Positions 2,269-58,645 of a DNA stretch of 64,000 bases are shown here, one piece after another (position 1 is the stretch's first letter; each line of letters starts with the position of its first letter). Origin of the DNA: Streptosporangium amethystogenes (GTDB taxonomy: Bacteria; Actinomycetota; Actinomycetes; Streptosporangiales; Streptosporangiaceae); the NCBI RefSeq assembly GCF_000721075.1, contig NZ_JOEQ01000015.1:234045-298044 (forward strand). The letters are read 5' to 3'. The translations under genes and the position numbers were made by a program. Below the pieces are notes generated by a model. It searched no databases, was not told the DNA's origin, and saw only the letters and a program-made list of their open reading frames with translations.

Positions 2269-4581
<2,313 letters not shown>

Positions 4582-4626
4582 TGACCTTCTCCCTTGATAT
4601 CCTTAGGGTGTAAAGAGATGGCCCGG

Positions 4627-4639
4627 TAAAGTTAGTTTA
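4627..4639. promoter_or_regulatory. Possible TetR operator
   Basis: A short inverted repeat, TAAA-gttag-TTTA, lies in the 116-bp gap between the divergent uvrA-like and tetR genes. The location suits an operator for the neighbouring TetR protein. The arms are short, so this is only a suggestion. Confidence 0.3.
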
Positions 4640-4697
4640 TGCCGTAAGGAGTGGCAAGTTGGTCGTCTTCGCCGGACAGGGCGACGCGCGCCGTTCG

Positions 4698-5462
4698 ATG
4701 GCACTGCTGTGGCACACCCCGAGGCCGGAAGGAGGGCGTCCCGGCCCCAAGCCCGGCCTGAGCGTGGATGTGATCGTGGATACGGCCATCGCCGTCGCCG
4801 ACTCCGAGGGGATGGCCGCGCTCTCCATGCGCGCGGTGGGTGAACGGCTCGGCCGCACCGCCATGGCCCTCTACACCTACGTGCCCAGCAAGAGCGAGCT
4901 GGTCGACCTGATGTATGACCGGGCCCTCGCCGAGTTGCCCGTCGACTACGAGCTGGGGGCGGGCTGGCGGGCGGCCGTGACCTCCTGGGCCGAGGACGCC
5001 TGGGCGTTCTACCTGTGCCACCCATGGGTGCTGCAGGTCTCGCAGGCGCGTCCGGTGCTGGGCCCCAACGAGTACGTCATGCTGGAGACGGCGCTGCGGA
5101 TCCTTCGCGAGACGGGCCTTACGGCCGGGGTGCTGCGGCGCCTCGTCGGGGTGCTGTTCCACTTCGTCCGCGCGGCGGCGCAGACGGTCGCGGAGTCGCG
5201 CCAGGCTCCGGCGGCGACCGGGATGTCCGACGAGGAGTGGTGGTACGCCCGCTCGGCCCTGCTGGAGGAGGTCGCGCCGGACTTCGCCGAGCGGTTCCCG
5301 ACGCTGACCTGGCTCGACAGCGAGGGTGCCTACCAGTCCGAGGACGAGAGCGTGCCCTACCTGGAACAGGAGGCGAAGGAGACCTTCGCGGCCGGTCTCG
5401 CCGTCCTGCTGGACGGCATCGAGGCGGCGATGAACAGGGCCGGCGTCCGAGCGCTCCCGTGA
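4698..5462 (+). CDS. TetR-family transcriptional regulator
   Basis: About 254 residues with an N-terminal TetR helix-turn-helix (AAIAVADSEGMAALSMRAV through GRTAMALYTYVPSKSEL) and a C-terminal ligand-binding domain of the TetR_C_1 type common in actinomycetes. I chose the ATG at 4698; an in-frame TTG at 4659 would add 13 residues with no homology to the family. It is divergent from the UvrA-like gene and probably represses it, releasing when a DNA-active or hydrophobic compound binds. Nothing in the sequence identifies the ligand. Confidence 0.88.
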   Translation: MALLWHTPRPEGGRPGPKPGLSVDVIVDTAIAVADSEGMAALSMRAVGERLGRTAMALYTYVPSKSELVDLMYDRALAELPVDYELGAGWRAAVTSWAEDAWAFYLCHPWVLQVSQARPVLGPNEYVMLETALRILRETGLTAGVLRRLVGVLFHFVRAAAQTVAESRQAPAATGMSDEEWWYARSALLEEVAPDFAERFPTLTWLDSEGAYQSEDESVPYLEQEAKETFAAGLAVLLDGIEAAMNRAGVRALP

Positions 5463-5528
5463 TCCTCCGGGGGCGGATCCGGGGCGCGGCGCCTGACTGA
5501 TCGGGCCGCCGCCGGGCAGAGGCATCTC

Positions 5529-5696
5529 ATGAAAAGGTTCTTCAAGGTCGTGGTGGCACGCTGGCTGGCCCGTACGCCGATCGGGCTGGCGATCCTGGGA
5601 GTCGGCTGGTTCCTGGGACGGCGGCGCAGGCAGCGGGCCCAGGAGCAGGGCGGGGTGAACAGGCCCCGGAGCCGTGATTCACGCGGACGCCGATGA
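5529..5696 (+). CDS. DUF6203-like small basic protein
   Basis: A 55-residue protein starting MKRFFKVVVARWLARTP, with a hydrophobic stretch (residues 17-30), then a run of arginines (GRRRRQR) and a hydrophilic tail. The pattern resembles the short DUF6203 proteins of Streptosporangiales, of unknown function; the assignment is from memory of the family pattern. One membrane-inserted helix with a basic cytoplasmic tail is plausible. It lies 66 bp after the TetR gene and ends 36 bp before a strong hairpin. Confidence 0.55.
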   Translation: MKRFFKVVVARWLARTPIGLAILGVGWFLGRRRRQRAQEQGGVNRPRSRDSRGRR

Positions 5697-5731
5697 CCCT
5701 TCGAGTTCACCGCGCCGGTGACGTGAGACGA

Positions 5732-5767
5732 GCGGGACGGCCCGGTCAACCGGCCGGGCCGTCCCGC
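5732..5767. terminator. Bidirectional hairpin terminator
   Basis: A perfect 14-bp stem (GCGGGACGGCCCGG with its complement) around an 8-nt loop. It lies between two convergent genes, the DUF6203-like gene and the oxygenase gene. No T-run follows, as is common for GC-rich actinomycete terminators. Confidence 0.7.
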
Positions 5768-5788
5768 CATCGCCTGAGCCCCCGCGGG

Positions 5789-6556
5789 TCAGTTGAACAT
5801 CGCCTCCATGGTCTCGTGTGACTGCTCCTTCTTCGCGTCGGACTCGCTGCCCCAGCAGGTGTTGAGGATGATCCGGGTGCGGTCCTCCGACAGCGGGACC
5901 GTGCGGTGCAGCGTCGTGTCGGAGCGCAGGAAGTAGATGTCGCCGCTCTGGTGGGCGTAGGTGCTGATCGGGTAGCGGATGAGGTGGTCGTGAACCCGGG
6001 GGTCCTCCTTCACCCAGTTGGTGTGCGGAACGCACTGGAGCATGCCGCCGTACTCGCTGCTCGGCGCCTCCAGGATCCAGATGAGGGTGAAGCTGAAGTC
6101 GCCCCAGTGCCAGCCGTGGGTGTCGCCCTGCTTCTCCTGGCGGATGATGACGTACTTCTCCTCGTCCCAGGGGCAGTTGACGACGGGCTCGTTCGCCAGC
6201 CGGCCCAGGAAGCCCTTGAGGGCGGGGGAGTCGTAGAGCTCCGGGATCAGGGAGCTGTCCTGAGCGATGGACTGCTGACTGACCGTGCTCATCTTGCGCG
6301 GGGAGTTGCTGGTCTCCTTGAGGTTGATGTCGATCCGGCGCGCGTGCAGGTCGAGCAGGCGCTCCACCTCGTCCGAGACGAGATCCTTGACCTCCTCGGA
6401 GACCACGTTCCGCAGTTTGACGTAGCCGTTCCTGCGGAAATCATGGGAGAATCTGCGAATTTCCCAGGGGTCCTGAAAGGTCTTTTCGAGATGCTCCGCG
6501 ATCCGGTCGTCGAGTGAGAGCGTCCCGAGGCCGGTCTCGTAGTCATGAGTCGGCAT
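5789..6556 (-). CDS. Putative Fe(II)/2-oxoglutarate-type oxygenase
   Basis: A 255-residue protein that looks like a phytanoyl-CoA or HalD-like double-stranded beta-helix oxygenase. A candidate metal site is the HGWHWGD segment near residues 144-150, and the late histidine in TLHRTVPL near 226 is followed by an arginine (DRTRI) that could hold the co-substrate. The first motif is not a textbook HxD, so the exact iron ligands are uncertain. Start is ATG at 6556 behind GGAGGAGA. It is transcribed divergently from the B12-radical-SAM gene, and the two probably form the left edge of the NRPS cluster. A hydroxylation of an amino acid or the peptide is the likely role (inference). Confidence 0.6.
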   Translation of the reverse strand: MPTHDYETGLGTLSLDDRIAEHLEKTFQDPWEIRRFSHDFRRNGYVKLRNVVSEEVKDLVSDEVERLLDLHARRIDINLKETSNSPRKMSTVSQQSIAQDSSLIPELYDSPALKGFLGRLANEPVVNCPWDEEKYVIIRQEKQGDTHGWHWGDFSFTLIWILEAPSSEYGGMLQCVPHTNWVKEDPRVHDHLIRYPISTYAHQSGDIYFLRSDTTLHRTVPLSEDRTRIILNTCWGSESDAKKEQSHETMEAMFN

Positions 6557-6715
6557 ACGGTTTCTCCTCCGTGGTTATCGAGGTTTCCAGAACCGTAACA
6601 CGCGAGTGGTGTCCGCAATTAGTGCGCGTTGTCCGTCCGGTCCCCCTGTGAAAGCATGAGCGGATTCCATCCGATCGGCTTCAGAAATTACTCGGACTAC
6701 GCAGGGACGAGCGTC

Positions 6716-8641
6716 ATGAACACCAAAGTCACATTCGTCGAGCTGTCTGCATTCGAGGCCATCCTGCCCCTTGCCTCCGGTTACATGCAGGCTTACGCGC
6801 AGCACGATCCGGAGGTGGGGCCGCGATGTGATTTCGAGATCTTCTCCGCCCCGGTGTCCGCGGACAGAAAGGAGGTGATCGCAGAACTCCTGGAAAAGCG
6901 CAGCGACGTCTACGCCATCAGTTGCTACATCTGGAACATCGGATTCGCGCGCGCGGTGCTGGCCGCGCTGCACGAGCGGCTCCCGGCGGCCCAGTTCATC
7001 CTCGGCGGCCCCCAGGTCATGCTGCACGCCGAGGAGTACGTCGCCCCCGAGCAGGAGAACGTCGTCGTCTGCAACGGCGAGGGCGAGAAGACGATGCTGC
7101 AGTACCTGCGCCAGGTGATCGGCGACGACCCCGACTTCTCGGCCGTCGACGGGATCAGCTTCTGGCGGTCGGGGGAACTCGTCACCACCGAGGCCGCCGA
7201 GCGGGTACGCGACCTGATGGAGGTGCCCTCGCCCTTCACCTCCGGCGTCTTCGAGGAGGGCAGGTACACCACCGCCATCCTGGAGACCAACCGAGGATGC
7301 CCGTTCAGCTGCGGTTTCTGCTTCTGGGGCGCGGCGACCAACGACAAGGTCCACAAGTTCGAGGACCAGCGGGTCCGCGACGACATCACCTGGATCAGCA
7401 AGCACGACTTCGTGTCGATCTTCATCGCGGACGCCAACTGGGGCATGGCCCCGCGCGACGTGGAACTGACCCGCCACCTGGTGGAGTGCAGTGAGGAGAA
7501 CGGCTACCCGGTGATGGTCTCGATGGCCGCGGCCAAGAACAAGCCCGACCGGATGGCCGAGATCACCGAGATTCTCGTGCGGGGAGGACTGCTGACCAGC
7601 CAGCCCATCTCCCTGCAGTCGATGAGCTCCAGGACCCTGGAGCTGGTCGACCGCTCGAACATCAAGCCCGCGACCTACACCGAGCTGCAGAGAACGCTCA
7701 GGGAAAAGCGCATCAGCTCCTACATCGAGCTGATCTGGCCGCTTCCCGGAGAGACCCTGGAGTCATACAAGGAGGGAATCGCGGAACTGTGCCGGCTCCG
7801 TGCCGACACACTCATCGTCTATCCGCAACTCCTGCTGCACAACACCTCGATATATGCCAAACGGGAGCTTCTCGGAGTGCAGGTGGAGCGCGTTCCCAGT
7901 GACGTCACGGAAGCCGACGTGGTGGTCGGCACCAACTGGGTCAGCCGCGCGGAGTGCGAGCGCGGAACCTGGTTCTACTACGCTGTCCACTCGCTCTACA
8001 ACCTACGCGGCCTGTATTACCTCGCCAATTATCTGGAGAGGTCCGGAACAAGGCGGCTGGAGGATTTCTTCACCGACGCAGCGACGTATTTCGAGAGCCG
8101 CACCGACACCGAGGTCGCCAGTTTCTTCCGCGATTCCGTGCAGAAACTCTGGAACTATGACTTCCACAATTTCGGGATGGTCGCGCACCTCGTCCTGCAC
8201 TCGCACCGTGAGGAGTTCGACGGACTGCTCGTCGACTTCGCCCGCGGTCAGTCCTGGTGGCGGGACGCCGGGGCGCGGGCCGCGTTCGAGCTCGACCTGC
8301 TGGCCAGGCCCTACATCTACCTGGCCAGGCCCAAGCCGCCGGGCTACGACTTCACCGAGTTGCGCGTCGAGCCGCACGGGAAGACGGCCTCGGTCGTCGA
8401 CATGCCCGCCGACCTGGCCGCCCTCCTCATCGACCTCGACGTGACCGGCCTGGAGGCCGGCCGGGAGCCCCTCACCCGGCTGGTGCTCGACCACCCGCGC
8501 GGGCGGAAGCTGCCGTTCATGCCCGAGCGCAGCCTGGAGCACAACGCCTCCTACTGCCAGGGCATGGTGCTGCGGCTGCGGGAGTATCTGCCCACCTGGC
8601 GGCCGGAGTCCGAGGTCGCCGCGTTGCCGGGCCGCCGCTGA
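6716..8641 (+). CDS. B12-binding radical SAM enzyme
   Basis: About 641 residues. The N-terminal ~150 residues resemble a cobalamin-binding Rossmann domain (VYAISCYIWN, LGGPQV), without the DxHxxG motif, as is usual in radical SAM fusions. The radical SAM core begins near residue 195 with the [4Fe-4S] motif CPFSCGFC in the context ETNRGCPFSCGFCFWG. The C-terminal ~200 residues are unassigned and rich in aromatic residues. Members of this class methylate unactivated carbon or phosphorus centres or do other radical rearrangements in natural-product pathways. I chose the ATG at 6716, where homology begins (MNTKVTFVEL); starts at 6629 and 6656 are possible but lack a ribosome site. It is divergent from the putative oxygenase and convergent with the phenylalanine-type NRPS gene. 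Substrate unknown. Confidence 0.85.
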   Translation: MNTKVTFVELSAFEAILPLASGYMQAYAQHDPEVGPRCDFEIFSAPVSADRKEVIAELLEKRSDVYAISCYIWNIGFARAVLAALHERLPAAQFILGGPQVMLHAEEYVAPEQENVVVCNGEGEKTMLQYLRQVIGDDPDFSAVDGISFWRSGELVTTEAAERVRDLMEVPSPFTSGVFEEGRYTTAILETNRGCPFSCGFCFWGAATNDKVHKFEDQRVRDDITWISKHDFVSIFIADANWGMAPRDVELTRHLVECSEENGYPVMVSMAAAKNKPDRMAEITEILVRGGLLTSQPISLQSMSSRTLELVDRSNIKPATYTELQRTLREKRISSYIELIWPLPGETLESYKEGIAELCRLRADTLIVYPQLLLHNTSIYAKRELLGVQVERVPSDVTEADVVVGTNWVSRAECERGTWFYYAVHSLYNLRGLYYLANYLERSGTRRLEDFFTDAATYFESRTDTEVASFFRDSVQKLWNYDFHNFGMVAHLVLHSHREEFDGLLVDFARGQSWWRDAGARAAFELDLLARPYIYLARPKPPGYDFTELRVEPHGKTASVVDMPADLAALLIDLDVTGLEAGREPLTRLVLDHPRGRKLPFMPERSLEHNASYCQGMVLRLREYLPTWRPESEVAALPGRR

Positions 8642-46288: not shown

Positions 46289-47863
46289 GTGACGAGTTCG
46301 CTTTCCGATGTCCAAAGTTCCCTTCCAGAGCCGACGACCGGCGAAGGCTCCCGGTCACCCACGCCGGGCCTCACCGCGGCCTTCGACCCCGAACGTTTCC
46401 ACGACGGCGCCGTGGACATCGTCAGCCGCCTGACGACGTACCTGGGGGACCGGTCGGTCCGGGGACTCGACCTCCTCGATCCGGCGGTGCTGCTGAAGGC
46501 CGCCCGGGAACTGATGACCCCGGAACGGCAGCGCATCGCCGACTTCGACGCCGACCGGGTGAACCAGATCGTCGACCTGTACACGGGGACCGGCATCCCG
46601 GTCTACTCACCCGGCTACCTGGGACGGCAGTTCTCCGGCGTGGTGCCGCTGGCCAGCCTTATCGACCTGGTCGGCTCGGTGGTCAACCAGCCCTCCTCCT
46701 TCTATGAGGCCGGGCAGCTCCCCAGCGTCGCCGAGCGGCTCATGGCCGAGGAGCTCAACCGTTTCATCGGCTGGGACCGCGACCGGTTCGCCATGGTGAC
46801 GACCTCGGGGGGCTCCCTGGCCAACCTGACCGCGCTGCTGGCCGCCCGCAACCGCGCCTTCCCGCACATCTGGACGCGCGGCGCCGCCGGCATGTCGGGG
46901 CCCCCGGCCATCGCGGTCAGCGAGGAGGTCCACTACAGCGTGGCCCGGGCGGCCGGGGTGCTCGGCATCGGGGAACGGCAGATCGTCCGGCTCCCGGTCG
47001 ACCGGGCCGGGCGGATCCGCTCCGATCTGGCCGGCCCGGTACTGGACGAGGCGTACCGGCGCGGTCTGCGCCCGTTCTGCCTGGTGGCCTCGGCCGGGAC
47101 CACGTCGATGGGCGCCTTCGACCCGCTGGAGGAGCTCGCGGCCGTGGCACGCCGGTACGGGCTCTGGCTCCATGTGGACGGGGCGCACGGGGCGAGCCTG
47201 CTGCTGTCGGACCGGCACCGGGACAGGCTGCGCGGCATCGAGCAGGCTGACTCGCTGACCTGGGACGCCCACAAGATGCTGTTCATGCCGGCGCCGTGCA
47301 CGCTGCTCTTCTACCGCGACGGTACGGCGGCGCGCGGCGCGTTCCGGCAGCGCGCCAGCTACGTCTTCGACGAGGAACCGGACGTCTACAGCGCCTACGA
47401 CAGCGCGGACAAGAACTTCGAGTGCACGAAACGCCCGATGATCATGCCGCTCTGGACGGTCTGGTCGGTCTACGGCCCGGCGCTGTTCGCGCAGAAGATC
47501 GACCGGCTGTGCGCGATGGCCCGGCAGGCGTACCGGATGCTCGCCGCCGAGCCGGACTTCGCCGTGGCGCACGAGCCGGAGTCCAACATCCTGTGCTTCC
47601 GGTACCGGCCGGACGGCCTGGAGGAGGCGACCGTGCACCGGCTGCAGCTGGAGATCCGCAACCGGATCCGGGGCGGCGGGCGCTTCTTCATCTCCAAGGT
47701 CGACATCGACGGGGTGGCGGCGCTGCGAATGGTGGTGATGAACCACCTGATCGACGCCGACCACCTGGCCATGCTCATCGCCGAGATCAGGGACATCGGG
47801 CAACGGGTGCTGCGCGCGAGCGCCACGGCCCGGCACGACCAGCGGAATGGGAGTCATTCATGA
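46289..47863 (+). CDS. PLP-dependent decarboxylase (group II)
   Basis: About 524 residues of the glutamate/DABA/aromatic amino acid decarboxylase family. The PLP lysine lies in SLTWDAHKML; the phosphate and aspartate contacts are in TTSGGSLANL and LWLHVDGAHGAS. Most likely substrates are glutamate, 2,4-diaminobutyrate, aspartate or an aromatic amino acid; the sequence does not decide. I chose GTG 46289, which follows GGAGG by 7 bp, over ATG 46250. The stop overlaps the next start (ATGA). As first gene of the PixA operon it may supply an amine to the next enzyme (inference). Confidence 0.88.
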   Translation: MTSSLSDVQSSLPEPTTGEGSRSPTPGLTAAFDPERFHDGAVDIVSRLTTYLGDRSVRGLDLLDPAVLLKAARELMTPERQRIADFDADRVNQIVDLYTGTGIPVYSPGYLGRQFSGVVPLASLIDLVGSVVNQPSSFYEAGQLPSVAERLMAEELNRFIGWDRDRFAMVTTSGGSLANLTALLAARNRAFPHIWTRGAAGMSGPPAIAVSEEVHYSVARAAGVLGIGERQIVRLPVDRAGRIRSDLAGPVLDEAYRRGLRPFCLVASAGTTSMGAFDPLEELAAVARRYGLWLHVDGAHGASLLLSDRHRDRLRGIEQADSLTWDAHKMLFMPAPCTLLFYRDGTAARGAFRQRASYVFDEEPDVYSAYDSADKNFECTKRPMIMPLWTVWSVYGPALFAQKIDRLCAMARQAYRMLAAEPDFAVAHEPESNILCFRYRPDGLEEATVHRLQLEIRNRIRGGGRFFISKVDIDGVAALRMVVMNHLIDADHLAMLIAEIRDIGQRVLRASATARHDQRNGSHS

Positions 47864-49401
47864 CCATGACGGATGTGGACATCGCCGCCTCGATGGAGCT
47901 GGCGGCACGGCTGATCCCCGAGGAGGAGCTGCGGCCCCACTCGGTGGACGACGTCACCCGGCTGCCGTCGTTCGCGGAGAAGCTGGAGGAGTGCGGGCGG
48001 CTCACCGGAGTCCCGTACTGCGAGTCCCCGCTCGACCTCCAGAACGCGCTGGTGTTCCGCCGGCTTCAGCAGCTCGTCGGCATCGCCCTGCTCAACCCGC
48101 TGTGGCGCGAGCGGCTGCACTACTTCGGGATCCGCAGCGCCCCCGCCGACATGTCCGAGTGGGAGCGGATCCCTCTCTCGGACAAGACCGTACAGCGGGA
48201 CATGTTCATGGGCGCGCGGGCCGGGATGGTCGTGCCGCTCGGCCACGGTGGGTTCGAGGTGGTGGCCAGTGGCGGCACCGGTGACGGCATGCCCCTGGAG
48301 ATCGTGTACTCCCTGCGGGAGCTGCGCGACACCTACCGCATCGCCGGGGCGTTCATGGGCGCCTACCAGCTCGGCCGCTACCTGCGCGGCCCCGCGCCGC
48401 GCTGGCTGTTCACCACCCTGGCCGACTACCAGATGTGGAGCAGCGGGACCATGGTCGGCGGCGTCCTATCCCACGTCCCGGGGGTCAACTACATCGGCGC
48501 GGGACCGGTGAGCGCGCCGGTGCTGGAGCACATGTTCTCCTACCCGGGCCCCAAGGCGCTGATGGGCATCACCGCCGGCATCGCGCTCCTGCCCGAGCTG
48601 GGCGCGGGCCTGCCCCAGCACGCCAGGGCGAGCTTCCGGGTCGCCATGTACGGCAGCGGCTCCCTGCCGCAGCGCAAGCGCGACGAGCTGCAGGCCTTCT
48701 TCCCCAACGTGTCGATCCTCAGTTACTTCGCCGCGACCCAGGCCGAGTGCGTCGGGCTCCAGCTCGACCACACCTCGCCGGCGCTCTCCGCCGTGCCCGG
48801 GCTGCACCTGGTGGAGATCGTGGACGAGCACGGCCGTGCCGTCGCCGAAGGCGAGGAGGGCGAGCTGGTCGTCACCCGGCTGCACGCCGACGAGACGCCG
48901 CTGCTCCGGCTCAAACTCGGCGATCGGATGATCCGCCGCCCCGCCCTGAACGGGCCCGGGCTGCGCACCGAGCGGTTCGAGTTCGCCGGGCGCACCGCCG
49001 ACGTGCTGCACCTCAACGACAGCCAGTATTCGGCGACGCTGGCCTACGCGGCGCTGCGCGGGCGGCTGCGCTCGACGGCCGGCGTCGACCTGGACCTGGT
49101 CGCGCACGAGGTCCAGTTCCACAACCACCGTGAGGACCGGACCCTCACCCTGCTGGCGGCGGTGGACGACGCCGAGGGCACGGCCGCGGCCGTCGAGCAG
49201 TCCCTCGGCCCGAGCGGGACGCGGCAGCTGTTCACCCAGGCGCTGCCGAGCTCCCTGTCGCTCTTCAACGACCGGGAGGCCAACGCGGCGGCCATCGAGC
49301 AGACCGGATACGGGTTCCGGCTGGTGTTCGTGCCACCCTCCTCACCGCAGATCGAGCGGACCACCGTCGGCAAGACGCCGCTGGTCAGGGACCGGGGCTG
49401 A
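47860..49401 (+). CDS. PaaK-like adenylate-forming enzyme
   Basis: A 513-residue protein resembling phenylacetate-CoA ligase and related adenylating enzymes. The P-loop region reads ASGGTGDGMPLEIVYS (family SSGTTGKP); the nucleotide motif is SYFAATQAE where YGSTE is usual; GELVVTRLHADETPLLRLKLGDR matches the hinge-side motif; and TTVGKTPLV near the C-terminus may hold the catalytic lysine. The P-loop lysine is missing, so activity is likely but altered. It may activate a carboxylate for transfer to a thiol or amine. Translation is coupled to the decarboxylase gene. Confidence 0.72.
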   Translation: MTMTDVDIAASMELAARLIPEEELRPHSVDDVTRLPSFAEKLEECGRLTGVPYCESPLDLQNALVFRRLQQLVGIALLNPLWRERLHYFGIRSAPADMSEWERIPLSDKTVQRDMFMGARAGMVVPLGHGGFEVVASGGTGDGMPLEIVYSLRELRDTYRIAGAFMGAYQLGRYLRGPAPRWLFTTLADYQMWSSGTMVGGVLSHVPGVNYIGAGPVSAPVLEHMFSYPGPKALMGITAGIALLPELGAGLPQHARASFRVAMYGSGSLPQRKRDELQAFFPNVSILSYFAATQAECVGLQLDHTSPALSAVPGLHLVEIVDEHGRAVAEGEEGELVVTRLHADETPLLRLKLGDRMIRRPALNGPGLRTERFEFAGRTADVLHLNDSQYSATLAYAALRGRLRSTAGVDLDLVAHEVQFHNHREDRTLTLLAAVDDAEGTAAAVEQSLGPSGTRQLFTQALPSSLSLFNDREANAAAIEQTGYGFRLVFVPPSSPQIERTTVGKTPLVRDRG

Positions 49402-49449
49402 GCACCTGACGGCCCGTATGCCCGAATGACATCCGACAAGGGAGGATCG

Positions 49450-49950
49450 ATGAAGGACAGGATCAGCATCGTCGTGATGGTCGACGCCGTCGGGGCGTTG
49501 TCCGACCGGACGCTGCACAACGGCAACCTCTCACTGGTCGACGACAGCTCGGCGGGGAGCAGGCACCAGGGGACCCCCGACCTCGTCACGGTGGTGGTCC
49601 CGGGACAGGTCGTCCAATGGACGCCCATCCACGTGGACGTGCAGACTCCGGTCGAGATCAAGGCCATCGAGTTCCTGTCCGGTGCGGCCGCCCAGCCCCC
49701 GGCTGACCAGACTGTGCCGGCGTACCCGGTGGAGCCCTCCACCGTTCCGGCACCCGCCGCCGTGTCCGGGGAGGGGGTCGACGCCACGGGTTCCAACGGG
49801 CACGAGAACTACGACCTCCTGGTGTGGGAGGGCGTCGTGCCCTACGACATGACGCCCGGTGTCCCGTACCGGTACCGGATCTCCCTCCAGCTCCACGAAG
49901 GACCCAACAGCGTGCTGCACATCGACTCGCCCGCGCTGCTGCGCGTGTGA
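49450..49950 (+). CDS. PixA/AidA-like inclusion-body family protein, paralog 1
   Basis: A 166-residue protein with the AidA/PixA pattern: a first strand ending in VMVDAVGAL, then GNLSLVDDSSAGSRHQGT, a GQVVQW turn and a late VWEGVV-containing strand followed by YRYRISLQL. PixA is a Xenorhabdus inclusion-body protein and AidA a quorum-regulated Burkholderia/Ralstonia protein; neither function is well understood. ATG 49450 follows AAGGGAGG. A proline-rich insert separates the two halves. First of four paralogs in tandem. Confidence 0.6.
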   Translation: MKDRISIVVMVDAVGALSDRTLHNGNLSLVDDSSAGSRHQGTPDLVTVVVPGQVVQWTPIHVDVQTPVEIKAIEFLSGAAAQPPADQTVPAYPVEPSTVPAPAAVSGEGVDATGSNGHENYDLLVWEGVVPYDMTPGVPYRYRISLQLHEGPNSVLHIDSPALLRV

Positions 49951-49975
49951 GCCACGTTCTGCGAAAGGCGGTTTC

Positions 49976-50758
49976 ATGGCCCAGCAACACGGGATCATCG
50001 TGCTCTTCGACGTCGAGAACGCGCTCCGGACGCGGTCGCTCGACGGCAACACGTACTGGTTCGACAACATGAAGTTGCTCGGCTCGGTCGGGGTGGGCAC
50101 CGAGCAGCTGGTGACGATCGTGCCCGGCACCCATTTCCTCGACGGGTCGCAGGCGACCGAGCAGGTGCTGAACTGGTTGCCCGCGGCGCTGGGGTCGATC
50201 CCCCCGACGGTGCCGCGCAACTACCTGGCCGAGCAGGAACGCGCCGACGACCGGCGCACGCTGGAGGAACTGGCCGCGCTCGGCAGCGCGGGCAGCGTGA
50301 GCGACGCCGATCTCAAGCGGCTGCAGCGGCGGGTCGGCAAGCGCGCCCGCAAGTCGGGCAGCGGGCGCGGCCTCACCGAGGCCAAGCTGCTGGACGTCAC
50401 CGGCAAGACCACGACCAGCCCCGGCGCGTACAACTATCCGGCTCCGGTGATCACCGATATCACCGGCCAGGCCGTCAGCGAGAAGATCATGTACCCGGCC
50501 CAGTACGGGTCGCCCGACATGATCTACGACGGCTGGTACTGGGCCGCGACCGTGGACACGAGCCGGCCCGGGGTCTACCCGTACACCATGCACGTCCAGC
50601 TGCACGAGCTGGTCGAGCAGGACGACGAGCTGGTCTGGCAGTCCGTGGACCTGACCTGTCAGTCCAGTCTCAAGATCATCAACGATCCGAAGCGCAACGG
50701 GTTCACCGGCGCCGGACTGGGCGTGCTCCCTCTCCCGTCCGTCCCGGCCGCCGGCTGA
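49976..50758 (+). CDS. PixA/AidA-like family protein, paralog 2 (with insert)
   Basis: About 260 residues, longer than its three sisters. The N-terminal family pattern is clear (IIVLFDVENALRTRSLDGNTYWFDN, GSVGVGTEQLVTI) and the C-terminal half resumes with DGWYWAATVD and PYTMHVQLHEL. In between is a ~90-residue charged, helical insert (ERADDRRTLEEL, RRVGKRARKSG) not found in the others. The insert could be a partner-binding or assembly segment. ATG 49976 follows GAAAGG weakly. Confidence 0.6.
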   Translation: MAQQHGIIVLFDVENALRTRSLDGNTYWFDNMKLLGSVGVGTEQLVTIVPGTHFLDGSQATEQVLNWLPAALGSIPPTVPRNYLAEQERADDRRTLEELAALGSAGSVSDADLKRLQRRVGKRARKSGSGRGLTEAKLLDVTGKTTTSPGAYNYPAPVITDITGQAVSEKIMYPAQYGSPDMIYDGWYWAATVDTSRPGVYPYTMHVQLHELVEQDDELVWQSVDLTCQSSLKIINDPKRNGFTGAGLGVLPLPSVPAAG

Positions 50759-50797
50759 CCCGGCCCGAGCCGGAGCATTCTCGACTGGAGGAGCAGC

Positions 50798-51265
50798 ATG
50801 CCCCCGAGGAACAGACAGTCCGAACGCCAGCCCGCCCGGCCCGTCCGGCCCGTGACGATCACCGCGGTGGTCGACCCCGTGGCCGCGCTGGCGTCGGAGA
50901 ACCTGGACGACAACCTCTACTTCTATGACACCAACAAGGCCGCGGGATCCACCGGTTTCGGCACCCCCGAGCTGCACAGCCGGGTTCGCAAGGGCGACAC
51001 CCTGCTGTGGAACGTGATCCCGCTGGAGTGCGAGACCTACGTGGCCCTCGCCGACATCGAGATCGACCCGCGGATCGCCGAGCCCACGCGGAAGGTGTAT
51101 CCCGGCACCGACATCGTGTTCTGGACCGCCGAGGTCAAGCAGGACCTCACCGAACCGGTCCCGTACCGGCTTTCGTTCCTGCTCGGCACCGTCGGCACAC
51201 CGTTCACCCCCACCGCCCGACCGGCCCTGGCCGGTCCCGCCAACGAGGGAAAGGGAGGCCGATGA
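50798..51265 (+). CDS. PixA/AidA-like family protein, paralog 3
   Basis: A 155-residue protein. Basic N-terminal tail, then the family core: ITAVVDPVAALASENLDDNLYFYDTN, GSTGFGTPELHSR, and VFWTAEVKQDL with PYRLSFLLG. It has the shortest C-terminus of the four. ATG follows GGAGGAG. Its stop overlaps the start of paralog 4 (ATGA), so the two are made together. Confidence 0.6.
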   Translation: MPPRNRQSERQPARPVRPVTITAVVDPVAALASENLDDNLYFYDTNKAAGSTGFGTPELHSRVRKGDTLLWNVIPLECETYVALADIEIDPRIAEPTRKVYPGTDIVFWTAEVKQDLTEPVPYRLSFLLGTVGTPFTPTARPALAGPANEGKGGR

Positions 51266-51810
51266 CCCAGGAATACGCGGCTGCGGACTTCGCCGATCGT
51301 GGTCAGCTCAACTCCGTCCAGCTGAACGTGGTGACCCTCGTCGACATGGAGAAGGCCGCCGCGACGAAGTCCCTGGACGGCTGCCTCTACATGATGGACA
51401 ACAGCGTCGGCGGGGTCGGGCAGGGCACCGACCAGCTGGAGACCATCTGCAAGCAGGGGCAGGTGATCAACTGGATCATCCGCCCGATCGACATGCACCG
51501 CCGTACGGACGGCACCTGGCCCCCGATGCCGAAGATCAACAACCTGGTCTTCCTCGACATCGAGAAGGGTGACGAGGACGACGTCGCCGAACGCCGGATC
51601 ATGACCGAGCTCAAGATCTACGGCGCTCCCGACCGGATGCGCGACCAGTACACCGCCGTCTACTACTACTGGGCCGGGGCGGTGATAAGCGAGGCCCGGC
51701 CGGGGCTCTACCGCTATCGGTTCGTCCTGGAGCTGGAGAAGGAACACGGCACCGACAAGCTGTACCTGAACTCGGCCCACTATCCCGCCCTGCGGGTGAT
51801 GCCCGTCTGA
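51262..51810 (+). CDS. PixA/AidA-like family protein, paralog 4
   Basis: A 182-residue protein with the best family pattern: NVVTLVDMEKAAATKSLDGCLYMMDNSVGG, GQGTDQLETI, GQVINWII and the final YYYWAGAVI, RPGLYRYRFVLEL. No signal peptide is seen on any of the four, so they are cytoplasmic or released with lysis or as inclusions. It is the last gene before a strong hairpin. Confidence 0.62.
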   Translation: MTQEYAAADFADRGQLNSVQLNVVTLVDMEKAAATKSLDGCLYMMDNSVGGVGQGTDQLETICKQGQVINWIIRPIDMHRRTDGTWPPMPKINNLVFLDIEKGDEDDVAERRIMTELKIYGAPDRMRDQYTAVYYYWAGAVISEARPGLYRYRFVLELEKEHGTDKLYLNSAHYPALRVMPV

Positions 51811-51849: not shown

Positions 51850-51882
51850 GGTCATGGTCGCCACCCGATGGCGACCATGACC
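51850..51882. terminator. Strong hairpin terminator of PixA operon
   Basis: A perfect 14-bp stem, GGTCATGGTCGCCA with its complement, around a 5-nt loop. A second smaller stem (GGCCTTCC/GGAAGGCC, 51988-52008) lies further on. The region 51883-52178 has no gene. Confidence 0.75.
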
Positions 51883-52178: not shown

Positions 52179-52946
52179 ATGACGACCACCATCACCGTGA
52201 TCGGCGGCCCGACGGCCCTGCTGGAACTCGGCGGGCTGCGCATCCTCACCGATCCGACCTTCGATCCGCCGGGAGACCACCCCGCCGGGCCGCTCACGCT
52301 CACCAAGACCATCGGCCCGGCGCTCTCCCCGGCCGACATCGGCCGGGTGGACCTGGTACTGCTCAGCCACGACCAGCACCCCGACAACCTGGACAGGCTG
52401 GGCCGCCAGATGATGTCCGCCGTGCCGCTGACCCTGAGCACGCCCGAGGCCGCCGCGCGCATCGGGGTCACCCCGATGCACCCCTGGCAGCACCACGACG
52501 TCGGCCGGGTGCGCGTCACCGCCGTTCCCGCCCTGCACGGCCCACCGGGATGCGAGCCCATCGTCGGCCAGGTCACCGGCTTCGTGCTCACCGGTGACGG
52601 GCTGCCCACCGTCTACGTCAGCGGGGACAACGCCTCGCTGGAGTACGTGGAGCTCATCGCCGGGCGGTTCCCGGTCGTCGACATCGCGCTGCTGTTCGGC
52701 GGCGCCGTCCGTACGCCCATGATCGACGAGCGGCTCACCTTGAACGCCGCCGAGATGGTGATCGCCGCGCGCCTGCTGAAAGCCCGGCAGGTCGTGCCGC
52801 TCCATGTCGAGGGCTGGAGCCACTTCACCGAGAGCCAGACGGACGTGCACGCCGCCTTCTCCGAAGCCGGCCTCGACCACCTGCTCGTTTCCGCCACTCC
52901 GGGACGGCAGGTCCCCCTGGGACCCGCACGGTCAGGTGCCCGGTGA
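52179..52946 (+). CDS. MBL-fold metal-dependent hydrolase (UlaG-like)
   Basis: A 255-residue metallo-beta-lactamase-fold protein. The metal motif appears as LLSHDQHPDNLD, where the usual HxHxDH reads SHDQHPDN, so one zinc ligand may be lost. TDPTFDPPG, VYVSGDN and VPLHVEGWSHF provide further family ligands. Start ATG 52179. UlaG-like proteins include phosphodiesterases and lactonases; the substrate is unknown. Confidence 0.82.
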   Translation: MTTTITVIGGPTALLELGGLRILTDPTFDPPGDHPAGPLTLTKTIGPALSPADIGRVDLVLLSHDQHPDNLDRLGRQMMSAVPLTLSTPEAAARIGVTPMHPWQHHDVGRVRVTAVPALHGPPGCEPIVGQVTGFVLTGDGLPTVYVSGDNASLEYVELIAGRFPVVDIALLFGGAVRTPMIDERLTLNAAEMVIAARLLKARQVVPLHVEGWSHFTESQTDVHAAFSEAGLDHLLVSATPGRQVPLGPARSGAR

Positions 52947-54423: not shown

Positions 54424-57400
54424 TCACGCCCCCGAGTGCAGGAACGCCGCCCAGGCCGACGGCTGCCCTGGCCGGGCCGCGCGCATGCGGCGGGTGGCCG
54501 TGTGCAGCGCGAGCGCGCCGGGGATCCGGACCTGCGCCTCGACGGTCAGGCGGACCTCGCGATGGAAGTCGGCAGCCATCGCCGCCGCGACCTGGTCGCC
54601 GATCTCCCACAGCGTGGCCACGGCCTGGGCGTAGCCGGCCAGTTGAAAGGCGGAGGCCAGGTGGATCGCCTCGTCGGCCAGCCTGGCGCCGCCGCGTGCG
54701 GTCGCGCAGGCCGAGAGGTAGGCCAGCTCGGCGTCGTCGAGGTCGAGCCGGCTGATCTCGGTGACGCTCAGGGGCCCGTCGTGTAACAGTAGGCGGCTCG
54801 CCGACGGGTCGTACGGGTCACTGCCGGCATGACAGGCGAAATGCGCGACGGTTGCCTCGGGCAGCGCGGCCAGCACGGCGGCGCGCGATGCCTGCGCGCC
54901 GATCAGCGCCAGGCCCCGGAGCCCGGCGGTGACCTCGACGGCCTCGCCCGCCGTCTCCGGCAGCGCGGCATGGCCGGGGGTCTGCGGCATGGCCACGGTC
55001 AGGCCGGCGCGGCGGGCCGGCACGGGACGGGAACGGCTGTGCAGCAGGGCCCGCAGGGTCGGCGTGTACGAGGACACCACCCGATCGAGGACCGACGCGC
55101 CCGCGATCGTGTGATGCCCGGCCGCGTGCAGCGGAAGGGAGTTGAGCGGCCCCGTCGGCGACCACCACAGGCGGGGCCACACCCCGCCCTCGGGCGACCC
55201 GGTGAGACCCAGCTCCGTCAGCACCGGTTCGGCCAGCACGTCCCACAACCAGCCGAGGGTGTCGAGCAGCACCTGCTGTGCCTGCCTGCTCAGCGGACCG
55301 GGACCGGCCTGCACGGTGGCGATCGCGGCGTGGAACGCCTCGGCCTGCTCGACGAGCTCGGCGGCACGCAAGCCCGGTAGCGGCACCAGGCGCACGCCGT
55401 CGGCGCACAGGGCCAGCGCGTCGCAGCGGCGCGGATTGACATTGACGGTCACCACCGGCCCTTCGGCGGCGACTGGCCTCAGAGCGGGCATGCCCAGCGG
55501 CAGCGGCATCAGGAACCGCCCGAACTCGGGCAGAGCCTGGATCCGGCCGGCCAGCTCGCTCGATTCCCCGGCCAGGTCACGCAGACGCGCGAATTCTTCC
55601 GGCGTCGGCTCATGGCCTGGGTCGGAGGCCACTGCGCGTATCCGCTCGCGCAGGGCGACGAAACGCTCGGCCAGATCGGAGTCGGCCGCCCGCAGGTTCG
55701 CCAGCTCCCTGCGGGCGTTGATCGCGCTGGAGAGCAGCAGCGCGCGGCCGTCCTCGAGCGCTTCGAGCGCCGCCGGCACGTCGTTTCGGGCGATCGCGGA
55801 TATGACGTTGTCCGAGGAGAGGCGGGCCAGGCCGCTCGGCCGCAGGTCGTCCTCGTCCGGGGAGACCATCCCTGCCGCCGTGGCCCGTAACCGCGCCGCT
55901 ATCCCCCACGCCATCATGAGCCGCGCGGCCTGTCCGGGATCCGCAGAGACGACGCGGCGGGTCAGGTCGGCGGCCTCCTGATAGGCCGTTTCGTCGTGAG
56001 CGAGTTGGTACTGCTGGAACAGCGTGTGGGCGAGGGTCTTCAGCGTCGCCGTGTGCTCCGGGTGCCCCTCCGGCAGGGCGGCGAGCCGCTCACGGTTGCG
56101 TTTCAGGGTGTCCTCGATCAGCGCGAGGAGCTCGAACGGGGACAGCAGCGTGTTGCTCAGCGTGAACATGTCGGCCGCTGCTCTGGCGGGCAGGTGGAGC
56201 GTGCTCGTCAACGACGGCAACATCTCCATCGTCTGGGAGAGCAGGGTGATGATCTCCTCGACCTGCCCGGGCCCGCTCGGCTCGCCGAGCCGGGGCCGCA
56301 GCAGGGCGAGCCGCGTCATGGTCTGGTGCAGCATCAGCGCGGAGCGTTCGGGACTGTCGTCCGGCAGCTCCCGCAGCACGCGTTCGTGCAGTTCGAGAAG
56401 CTCGTCGAGACTCGCCGTATCCACGGGCGTCTGCGGTGACTCGGCCGGGGCGAGGATTTGCGTCAGCATCGCGTCGAGCCGATCGTCGGGGGCCAGGTGA
56501 CGGGATCGCCGCTGTACCAGCTCGAAAGCCGTTTTATCCAGGTCGGTGCCGGAGGGATCGCGCAGGAAACTCGCCATGAGGTCCATGAGCTGTGCGAAGT
56601 GGTCTTGCCCGTGGGACGGGGCGACGCCGATCATCCGGGTGGTGACGGCGAGCCAGTTGTCGGGTTCGTCTGAGGCGTCGCCGCTGGTGGCCGGGATCAC
56701 CCGCCGGAACAGGTCGGTTATTTCGGTCATGCGGCGCCACGCCTCCGGGCTGAGAGCGACGGTGGGGGCGGGGACGGGCTTCGGCCTCCGCATCAGCTCG
56801 GCCCTGGCCAGCAGTCGCAGCCGGGCGCGCCGTTCGGCGGTGTGCCCGGGCGTCTCCTGTACGGCTCTGCCGATGGCGGCGACGGCCTCGTCGAGTACAG
56901 CGGGATCGGCCTCGCCGGTGAAGTCCATCTGAAGCAGCAGAGAGGAGCCCAGATCGGTGAGGACCTGCGGAAGATTCTCGGCCGCCCCCGTCGCCGTCTC
57001 CACGGCGAGCCGGAACAGGTCGATGGCCTCGGTCAGCATGGCCGTGTCCCGAGACGCGATGGCCTTGGCCCGCACCGCCAGGGCCAGGCCGTTGGCGCAG
57101 CGGGCGTGGTTCCGGTGCTCCCGGGGAGTGCCCTGGAACGACTGCCTGAGCACCGCGACGGCCTCGTCGATGTTCGGCGGCTCGGGGCTCTCCTCCTCCG
57201 GTACCAGCGAGTCGTTCAGCAGGAGCGCGTACCCGAGATTGCACAGGACCAGCGCGTGGGAAGGGTGATCGGGTGGAAGGTCGTGGGCGGCCCGGCGCAG
57301 CAGCCCGACCGCGGTCTCGCCGTCGAGGCGGTGCTGGAACCGGGTGAAACGTTCGAGTAGGAACATGGCAAGGTTCGACAGCGCCTCGGCGAACGCGTGC

Positions 57401-57747
57401 GCCCGCTCTTCCCCCACCGGCTCGTTCGTGCCGAACGCTTCGGTGAACGAGGCCCGCACCTGGTCAGGCAGGGCGTCCGGCCCGGCCAGGTAGATGGGCG
57501 TCAGCAGGACCACCGCCCGGCCCCACGCCTCCTGGCCCGGTGCGCCGGGCAGGACTGCCGCGCGCAGCCAGTGCAGCAGGCCGACTGCGTACAGCACCTC
57601 CTGGTCCGCGCCCTCCGGCGTGGCGAGGAATTCGAGCAGCCGCTCGGCCTCGGCCAGGGCCTCGGGGTCGAGGACGCCGGCGGCGTCACGGACGCCCGAC
57701 ACCGAGGCGAACCGGGCGCGAAGGGCACTGAGTAGTTGGTCACGCAT
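54424..57747 (-). CDS. CHAT-domain protease with TPR repeats
   Basis: About 1107 residues. The long N-terminal part is helical with TPR-like repeats (such as AEALSNLAMFLLERF, LVLCNLGYALLLND). The C-terminal ~330 residues are a CHAT (caspase-like) domain: the catalytic histidine lies in VAHFACHAGSDP near residue 972 and the cysteine in AYLSACATARGGARL near 1010; both are intact. CHAT-TPR proteins are effectors in bacterial conflict and defence systems. I set the start at ATG 57747; the frame is open to 57864 but overlaps the membrane protein gene. It is the last of three genes on this strand. Confidence 0.88.
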   Translation of the reverse strand: MRDQLLSALRARFASVSGVRDAAGVLDPEALAEAERLLEFLATPEGADQEVLYAVGLLHWLRAAVLPGAPGQEAWGRAVVLLTPIYLAGPDALPDQVRASFTEAFGTNEPVGEERAHAFAEALSNLAMFLLERFTRFQHRLDGETAVGLLRRAAHDLPPDHPSHALVLCNLGYALLLNDSLVPEEESPEPPNIDEAVAVLRQSFQGTPREHRNHARCANGLALAVRAKAIASRDTAMLTEAIDLFRLAVETATGAAENLPQVLTDLGSSLLLQMDFTGEADPAVLDEAVAAIGRAVQETPGHTAERRARLRLLARAELMRRPKPVPAPTVALSPEAWRRMTEITDLFRRVIPATSGDASDEPDNWLAVTTRMIGVAPSHGQDHFAQLMDLMASFLRDPSGTDLDKTAFELVQRRSRHLAPDDRLDAMLTQILAPAESPQTPVDTASLDELLELHERVLRELPDDSPERSALMLHQTMTRLALLRPRLGEPSGPGQVEEIITLLSQTMEMLPSLTSTLHLPARAAADMFTLSNTLLSPFELLALIEDTLKRNRERLAALPEGHPEHTATLKTLAHTLFQQYQLAHDETAYQEAADLTRRVVSADPGQAARLMMAWGIAARLRATAAGMVSPDEDDLRPSGLARLSSDNVISAIARNDVPAALEALEDGRALLLSSAINARRELANLRAADSDLAERFVALRERIRAVASDPGHEPTPEEFARLRDLAGESSELAGRIQALPEFGRFLMPLPLGMPALRPVAAEGPVVTVNVNPRRCDALALCADGVRLVPLPGLRAAELVEQAEAFHAAIATVQAGPGPLSRQAQQVLLDTLGWLWDVLAEPVLTELGLTGSPEGGVWPRLWWSPTGPLNSLPLHAAGHHTIAGASVLDRVVSSYTPTLRALLHSRSRPVPARRAGLTVAMPQTPGHAALPETAGEAVEVTAGLRGLALIGAQASRAAVLAALPEATVAHFACHAGSDPYDPSASRLLLHDGPLSVTEISRLDLDDAELAYLSACATARGGARLADEAIHLASAFQLAGYAQAVATLWEIGDQVAAAMAADFHREVRLTVEAQVRIPGALALHTATRRMRAARPGQPSAWAAFLHSGA

Positions 57748-57760
57748 CGTCGCCTCGCAA

Positions 57761-58645
57761 TCAGGTGGCCTTTCTGAACCTCTCGCTGACCGTCTTTCCG
57801 CGTCCCGGCCGGATCGGCCGGGTCTCGTCGTCGAACCGCTCCAGCAGGTCGTCCAGGTAGACATCCACGGTGGCCTCGACCAGTTCGGTGTACACCTCGG
57901 CGGCCACCCTCGCCCGCCGCCACGCGACGAGCCCGGTGCACAGCCCGACGATCACGCTCGGCCACCACACCATGCCGAGTGCGGCATACAGCGCGGCCCA
58001 CCCGCCCAGGGCGGTCGCCTCGTCGAAACGCTGCCTGCTCTCCGTGAGCGGCTCGCGCGCCGAGTCGGGCAGCAGCAGCCACAGTCGCGGCCAAGCGGCG
58101 GCCAGGTCCACGCCATACTGCTTGCGCACCCTCGTCGCGGGGGCGTGCAACCGGTCGCCGATCCAGGTCGGCCGGCGTGGCTCGGTGAGCGCGACCGCGT
58201 TCCTGGCCTCGGCGAGTTCACCGAGGCGGCCGTGCTCACCCTCCTCCTTGGCGTCCCGGTACTCCTGCCTGAGCTTGTTCCAGGCCCGCTTCCGCCGCTC
58301 GGTGAGCGCCCTCGCCAGCGGGCGCGCGAAGACCGGCCACCGCCCGGTCAGCAGGTGCTCGACGGGCGTGCCGAGCGCTCGCGCGACGAATCCGGCCGCC
58401 GCTGACACGGCGAGCAGGGCGGCCAGCAGCACCATGGTCCGTGCCAGGTCGGACTGCTGCCGGTCGCCGAGCAACGCGGTGAACTCGATCGACTTGCGCC
58501 ACAGCAGTCCGGGGTCCGCCCAACTCCGGTGCCCGAGCACCACCGCCGTCGTGGCGACGGCCGTGAACACCAGTCCGGGCAGTACGAGCAGCGCGACCCA
58601 CCGCTCCGCGACCTTTTTGCCGAGTTCGGCGAGAAAGCCCGTCAT
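57761..58645 (-). CDS. Membrane protein of CHAT system
   Basis: A 294-residue protein with helices near residues 18-38 and 68-90, a long cytoplasmic helical region (ERRKRAWNKLRQEYRDAKEE), and two helices near 205-240, with a C-terminal charged tail. No known domain was recognised. It starts 13 bp upstream of the CHAT gene and 9 bp after the small zinc protein gene stop, so the three form one operon. A membrane anchor or pore regulated by the CHAT protease is possible. Confidence 0.75.
   Translation of the reverse strand: MTGFLAELGKKVAERWVALLVLPGLVFTAVATTAVVLGHRSWADPGLLWRKSIEFTALLGDRQQSDLARTMVLLAALLAVSAAAGFVARALGTPVEHLLTGRWPVFARPLARALTERRKRAWNKLRQEYRDAKEEGEHGRLGELAEARNAVALTEPRRPTWIGDRLHAPATRVRKQYGVDLAAAWPRLWLLLPDSAREPLTESRQRFDEATALGGWAALYAALGMVWWPSVIVGLCTGLVAWRRARVAAEVYTELVEATVDVYLDDLLERFDDETRPIRPGRGKTVSERFRKAT

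Follow-up and report, generated by a model that had tools for sequence, protein, structure and literature searches.

The question posed by one stretch of the Streptosporangium amethystogenes genome (contig NZ_JOEQ01000015.1, positions 234,045 to 298,044; the whole 64,000 nucleotides are called the window here) is why genes for a pyridoxal phosphate (PLP)-dependent decarboxylase, dec, and a PaaK-like adenylate-forming enzyme run directly into four tandem paralogs, m1 to m4, related to MakC and MakD. The six genes recur in the same order on one strand in 72 of 73 loci drawn from several bacterial phyla. Tentatively, and short of calling it probable, we read them as a single functional module that is inherited, and passes between genomes, as a unit and in which the enzyme pair feeds a four-part protein assembly.

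The six-gene cassette

The open reading frame list places six frames on the + strand between 46289 and 51810, with overlapping or close starts, exactly where the preliminary description of this DNA had drawn an operon. The features are as follows.

46289–47863, + strand: dec, group II PLP-dependent decarboxylase, 524 amino acids, first gene, GTG start after a GGAGG site
47860–49401, + strand: PaaK-like adenylate-forming enzyme, 513 amino acids, with an altered, invariant P-loop
49450–49950, + strand: m1, MakC/MakD-family paralog, alternative start at 49426
49976–50758, + strand: m2, paralog with a variable insert at about residues 72–157
50798–51265, + strand: m3, the paralog nearest MakC by sequence
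51262–51810, + strand: m4, paralog
51850–51882, no strand assigned: hairpin with a perfect 14-base stem, about 40 bases 3' of m4

Four-base ATGA overlaps join dec to the PaaK-like gene and m3 to m4. The hairpin may mark the end of the operon; a terminator scan scores it on the - strand only, the + strand being without a T run. Among 70 loci related to this one, the strongest stem 3' of m4 outdoes the best of 30 shuffles in 27 and fails to do so in 43.

Recurrence across bacteria

A profile scan of genome contigs with an alignment of the PaaK-like enzyme gathered the 73 loci. Their cassette content was established with each window protein as a query (E value 1e-4), and gene order was checked by script. 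All six genes, in the order dec–PaaK–m1–m2–m3–m4, are present in 72 loci, which bears out the recurrence on which the preliminary description had staked its proposal. The exception, L077, lies on a contig that breaks off within the PaaK-like gene. The start of the L054 contig truncates dec, and m1 in L041 and m2 in L069 are each split into two frames. Hosts belong to the Actinomycetota, Pseudomonadota, Bacteroidota and Acidobacteriota (Granulicella), and further contigs are labelled Actinobacteria, Chloroflexi, Aminicenantes or uncultured bacterium, labels that for metagenome-assembled genomes carry a binning risk. The closest PaaK-like proteins, at 89–96% identity, come from Streptosporangium and Sphaerisporangium. 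Since named actinomycetes supply 47 of the 73 loci, many of them close kin, the weight of the recurrence rests on the other 26, in which paralog identity to the window drops to 28–33%.

Genome surveys show how closely the parts keep company. Among 100 genomes (the window's own and its relatives), the PaaK-like enzyme is found at E values below 1e-280 in 12, and the same 12 give hits to the MakCD family at 1e-5. At a threshold of 0.001 the PaaK-like profile matches 28 of the 100; beyond the 12 strong cases the best match reaches 5.8e-14 with partial cover of the profile, and such weaker matches are taken for other ANL enzymes. Of 345 genomes of the class, counting the window's own, the PaaK-like enzyme occurs in 4 (at 1e-60) and MakCD in 6 (at 1e-5), the 4 lying within the 6. 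The phylum of locus L058, represented by 296 genomes, has the enzyme in the L058 genome alone. In 20 cassette genomes, all 3–4 MakCD hits (E value 0.001) lie together on a single contig, in a stretch of at most about 2.4 kb, and none of the 20 has a hit over the family cut-off.

The enzyme pair

Dec matches the Pfam model Pyridoxal_deC at 2.8e-56 and carries the PLP lysine, which identifies it as a group II PLP decarboxylase, in line with the PLP decarboxylase that had been proposed here. Its closest solved structures are GAD67/GAD65, followed by the bacterial 4rit, GADL1 and CSAD, with desferrioxamine- and diaminobutyrate-type decarboxylase structures ranking lower. K329, H215, D297 and H300 are present in 73 of 74 dec sequences, and Y358 and R480 in all 74; we take K329 to be the PLP lysine and assume for the other conserved residues the roles they have in the GAD family. 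Against the PADLOC anti-phage models, dec gives only a match to SspA at E 0.0047, and the other five cassette proteins give no match.

The second gene product scores weakly against PaaK-family and FlxY models in Pfam and NCBIfam sequence searches. Its predicted model, of middling confidence (predicted local distance difference test score 69.9), resembles PaaK-type enzymes along its length, in agreement with the earlier naming of the gene. The best fold-search matches are BT_0428 and PaaK1, over most of the length and with template modelling scores by query of 0.48–0.62; NatL2, AjiA1 and ClxA stand lower among the matches. The P-loop reads SGGTxxGxPxE, which differs from what we take to be the canonical phosphate-binding loop, and it had been described as damaged. 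That description fails, as all 73 sequences have S137, G138, G139, T140, G143 and E147, and 72 have P145. E296, D355, R378 and K505 are likewise found in all 73; D355, R378 and K505 presumably represent the A7/A8/A10-type motifs of PaaK-type enzymes. To judge from this conservation, the loop looks like a selected variant rather than a decayed one, and the enzyme is probably active, because the variant is invariant and the other catalytic residues are kept.

Two arrangements tie the enzymes to each other. In locus L064 (Kordia), dec and the PaaK-like enzyme are fused next to m1 in one frame of 1046 amino acids that scores against both queries, and in four flavobacterial loci (L063, L064, L070 and L074) a second, diverged dec–PaaK pair lies directly upstream, at about 4200–7350. 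The fusion and the duplicated pair argue that dec and the PaaK-like enzyme act as a pair, and they would work in sequence on one substrate line. Dec would remove CO2 from an amino acid or an amino-acid adduct, and the PaaK-like enzyme would adenylate a carboxylate on, or joined to, the dec product, giving an amide or an ester. A parallel is offered by the omega-amino acid that an aspartate-type decarboxylase produces and that is then adenylated. In L047, L049 and L050, the 1.3 kb between the PaaK-like gene and m1 holds an aminotransferase-like gene, confirmed by Pfam for L047.

The four paralogs

The NCBIfam model NF049870 (MakCD) matches m1 at 2.2e-10 (longer frame), m2 at 4.5e-9, m3 at 6.1e-15 and m4 at 5e-14, with scores of 36.4–55.4 bits that stay under the 110-bit curated cut-off. 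In profile–profile comparison, the six pairs among m1–m4 align at 98.1–99.9% probability, those with m2 over 47–62 columns only. Because of these common matches and pairwise alignments, the pattern shared by the four proteins is not due to chance, and they are diverged paralogs as first described. The m3 profile matches MakC (8rqy) at 4.1e-20 and MakD (6tct) at 4.8e-15. Sequence homology of the NF049870 type extends to 26 of 26 m3 members and 24 of 27 m2 members, and a search with m4 gives 186 homologs up to E 1e-3, the best 120 of them listed.

Membership in the PixA/AidA family, which the preliminary description had assigned, survives in part. The predicted model of m2, the sole paralog modelled, has the MakC/MakD/PixA fold with the PixA beta-sandwich. 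At the sequence level, the Pfam PixA model PF12306 matches none of the four window paralogs, none of 27 m4 sequences and 2 of 26 m3 sequences (best E 0.039), relatives of m1 and m2 lying outside that scan. PF12306 is also absent from the window's own genome and from 20 cassette genomes, in a search whose sensitivity is unproven, as no control genome gave a match. The sequence relatives of m1–m4 are MakC and MakD, and the kinship with PixA lies at the level of the fold. The charged insert noted earlier in one paralog is present in m2 and at the same position in its orthologs; it is variable in length and largely missing in L052.

This kinship raises the thought that m1–m4 regulate or chaperone some other gene product, as is thought for MakC and MakD, their nearest sequence relatives, with the enzymes belonging to loosely linked metabolism. 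Such a role is highly improbable: among the 60 largest flank clusters shown, no client-like family recurs across phyla, and enzymes and paralogs stand together in all 72 uncut loci, even if these were fetched by the enzyme.

Preferable to a chaperone role is an assembly made of the four paralogs themselves. Their separate presence in each of the 72 uncut loci points to four jobs or to four positions in one complex. According to the MakC/MakD study, both proteins are mainly cytosolic and form dimers in crystals via one sheet, and MakC joins large complexes in the cell (PMC11484084). In view of these dimers and complexes, hetero-assembly of m1–m4 is plausible by analogy. The paralogs would pair in the manner of the MakC and MakD dimers, the pairs would make up a cytosolic hetero-oligomer, and this complex would bind, store or present the enzymes' product, or hold the enzymes themselves.

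Conserved residues bear on two other roles. The paralogs carry invariant acidic or amide residues (D63 and Q65 in m1; E77 and E79 in m3; 73 of 73 sequences), and across the 60 largest flank clusters, with 25 of 135 families shown, no constant acceptor or carrier gene stands beside the cassette. Both observations would suit a protein-modification system in which m1–m4 are the substrate, with the acid activated by the PaaK-like enzyme, or the dec amine, attached to conserved side chains. We consider this quite improbable, for the invariant residues differ from paralog to paralog, and the MakC/MakD study, in the text available, reports no such enzymes (PMC11484084). A catalytic role, in which m1–m4 tailor or condense the adenylate in a short pathway to an amide-type signal or specialised metabolite, is rather unlikely too: no catalytic motif common to all four was seen, and the literature searched describes no activity for the fold family.

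Evolutionary history

In a phylogeny of 116 paralogs, drawn from the window plus 28 loci in several phyla, m1, m2, m3 and m4 separate, each on one side of a supported branch (97/83, 100/100, 100/99 and 95/97, respectively). Across phyla, the paralogs group with their own kind, which implies that the four became distinct, fixed parts a single time, before they spread. This four-way split is well supported; the branches of m2 and m3 are long, and the order of duplication is therefore not trustworthy. The tree of the PaaK-like enzyme (33 rows) mixes phyla, with at least three changes for Pseudomonadota by starred branches, counts that do not prove transfer. In it, Granulicella and a Chloroflexi metagenomic contig fall into a supported group with alphaproteobacteria, and the Bacteroidota stand together. 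These trees are most simply explained if the four roles became established early and the whole block later moved between lineages by horizontal transfer, which fits the patchy presence of the enzyme (12/100, 4/345 and 1/296 genomes).

Expression and flanking genes

TTA codons in streptomycetes need the bldA tRNA and mark late genes. In 22 streptomycete-type loci, dec accounts for 14 TTA codons and the remaining five genes for 3 in all; dec has at least one in 11 of these loci, and one in 3 of the other 25 actinomycete loci (L017, L020 and L044). In the streptomycete-type loci, nearly all dec TTA codons sit at aligned codons 22–28, with an extra one in L048 at codon 55. Within the dec stretch inspected, a start codon precedes the TTA in 10 of the 11 loci (not in L048), and a TTG start candidate follows soon after the TTA in L026, L045 and L048, with L031 and L033 ambiguous. 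This codon hints at late expression of dec.

Related proteins are also tied to growth phase or density. AidA is under strong quorum regulation (PMC2753556), late or density control is described in PMC9060813 as well, and an "inclusion body family protein" of Jeongeupia, not shown to come from a cassette, rises on chitin (PMC10455584). PixA proteins themselves are stationary-phase inclusion-body proteins, according to PMC9060813. With the predicted PixA fold of m2 and the late-expression hint in dec, this suggests a structural alternative, in which m1–m4 together build cytosolic inclusions in stationary phase, with the enzymes or their product enclosed or stored inside. It is unlikely: MakC and MakD are seen mainly in the cytosol (PMC11484084), the sequences bear no sign of crystallisation, and four strictly kept paralogs exceed the apparent need of a storage body.

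For the module of enzymes and assembly favoured here, expression would probably be late and regulated, given the TTA codon in dec in half of the streptomycete-type loci and the response regulators beside some cassettes. The flank survey covers 81 proteins from 26 other loci (81 of 126 listed), with 25 of 135 families shown. Response regulators form the commonest family (7), followed by isochorismatase-type hydrolases (5) and LytTR domains (4). At the 3' side of m4, on the reverse strand, L023, L026, L031, L032 and L033 have frames of 217–246 amino acids that cluster with the Pfam-confirmed response regulator of L052, and the frames of about 385 amino acids beside them may encode a sensor kinase. 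An isochorismatase-type hydrolase follows the cassette in unrelated hosts (L047:14142-14741, L056:12961-13509, L057:12875-13441, L073:13025-13573 and L076:12928-13470); frames on the reverse strand in L040, L041, L044 and L048 join this family by clustering only, not by Pfam.

Two further genes of the window were named by eye. A metallo-hydrolase-like gene lies downstream of the cassette (52179–52946, + strand), and a repeat-rich protein of 1146 amino acids, whose end resembles a CHAT-type domain, is encoded at 54424–57864 on the - strand.

Proposed function

Several points weigh against a single module of enzymes and assembly. Because the PaaK-like gene served to collect the loci, sets of paralogs lacking the enzyme could have escaped notice, a bias that the genome surveys reduce and do not remove. 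A lone true MakCD gene over the cut-off (about 161 bits; G214:C57:635-997 and G345:C3:2444-2806) occurs without the PaaK-like enzyme in two of the 345 actinomycete genomes, which means that these enzymes are not a general requirement of the MakCD fold family. As for the substrate, sequences in the PDB put dec nearer to acidic-amino-acid enzymes (GAD1, 208 bits) than to diamino-acid ones (2qma, 126.5 bits), and its NCBIfam scores are nearly equal for PanP (171 bits) and diaminobutyrate decarboxylase (167 bits), both far under the cut-off. The excess of TTA in dec (11 of 22 loci, compared with 8 of 115 flanking frames; Fisher p 5e-6) was assessed after the pattern had been seen, in related loci and with no correction of p for kinship, and the window's own cassette genes contain no TTA codon.

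Within these limits, the phrase "small molecule plus protein assembly", which the preliminary description had offered, is a reasonable interpretation. A bolder version is possible though doubtful: the small molecule of the decarboxylase–adenylase pair would be incorporated into an obligate four-subunit complex of the MakC/PixA fold, be carried by it or be required for its assembly, and the unit would move across phyla and be turned on late in growth. If a four-subunit complex with a small molecule is correct, it would be the first biochemical role for the PixA/AidA/MakC family. PixA, AidA and MakC/MakD have been studied, and no molecular job for them was found in the literature searched. The cassette gives this puzzling fold two nameable enzymatic partners, which makes its job directly testable.

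Comparison with known systems

The component families are known, and the six-part combination is new as far as the literature searched shows, no account of this gene set having been found there. Dec shares a long alignment and the PLP lysine with the group II decarboxylases of the GAD/CSAD/PanP and diaminobutyrate types. It reads C379 T380 K381 R382 in 74 of 74 sequences, followed by P383 in 73, where glutamate decarboxylase 1 has CGRHV. The PaaK-like enzyme, in its predicted model, has its overall fold in common with PaaK, BT_0428, NatL2, AjiA1 and ClxA, at 13–18% identity among the matches listed, and its P-loop is one residue longer than that of BT_0428, with which it aligns with one insertion.

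The paralogs stand apart from PixA and AidA (PF12306; structures 4lzk, 4pib and 4q52), whose Pfam model fails on m1–m4. The aidA operon described in PMC9060813 consists of two genes, in contrast to the six of the cassette. An alpha-pore-forming toxin family is not among the 25 of 135 families shown for the 81 flanking proteins, in a survey that included no dedicated search with toxin models. The nearest relatives, MakC and MakD, are accessory proteins of the mak operon, which combines two paralogs with a tripartite toxin, whereas the cassette combines four paralogs with a decarboxylase and a PaaK-like enzyme.

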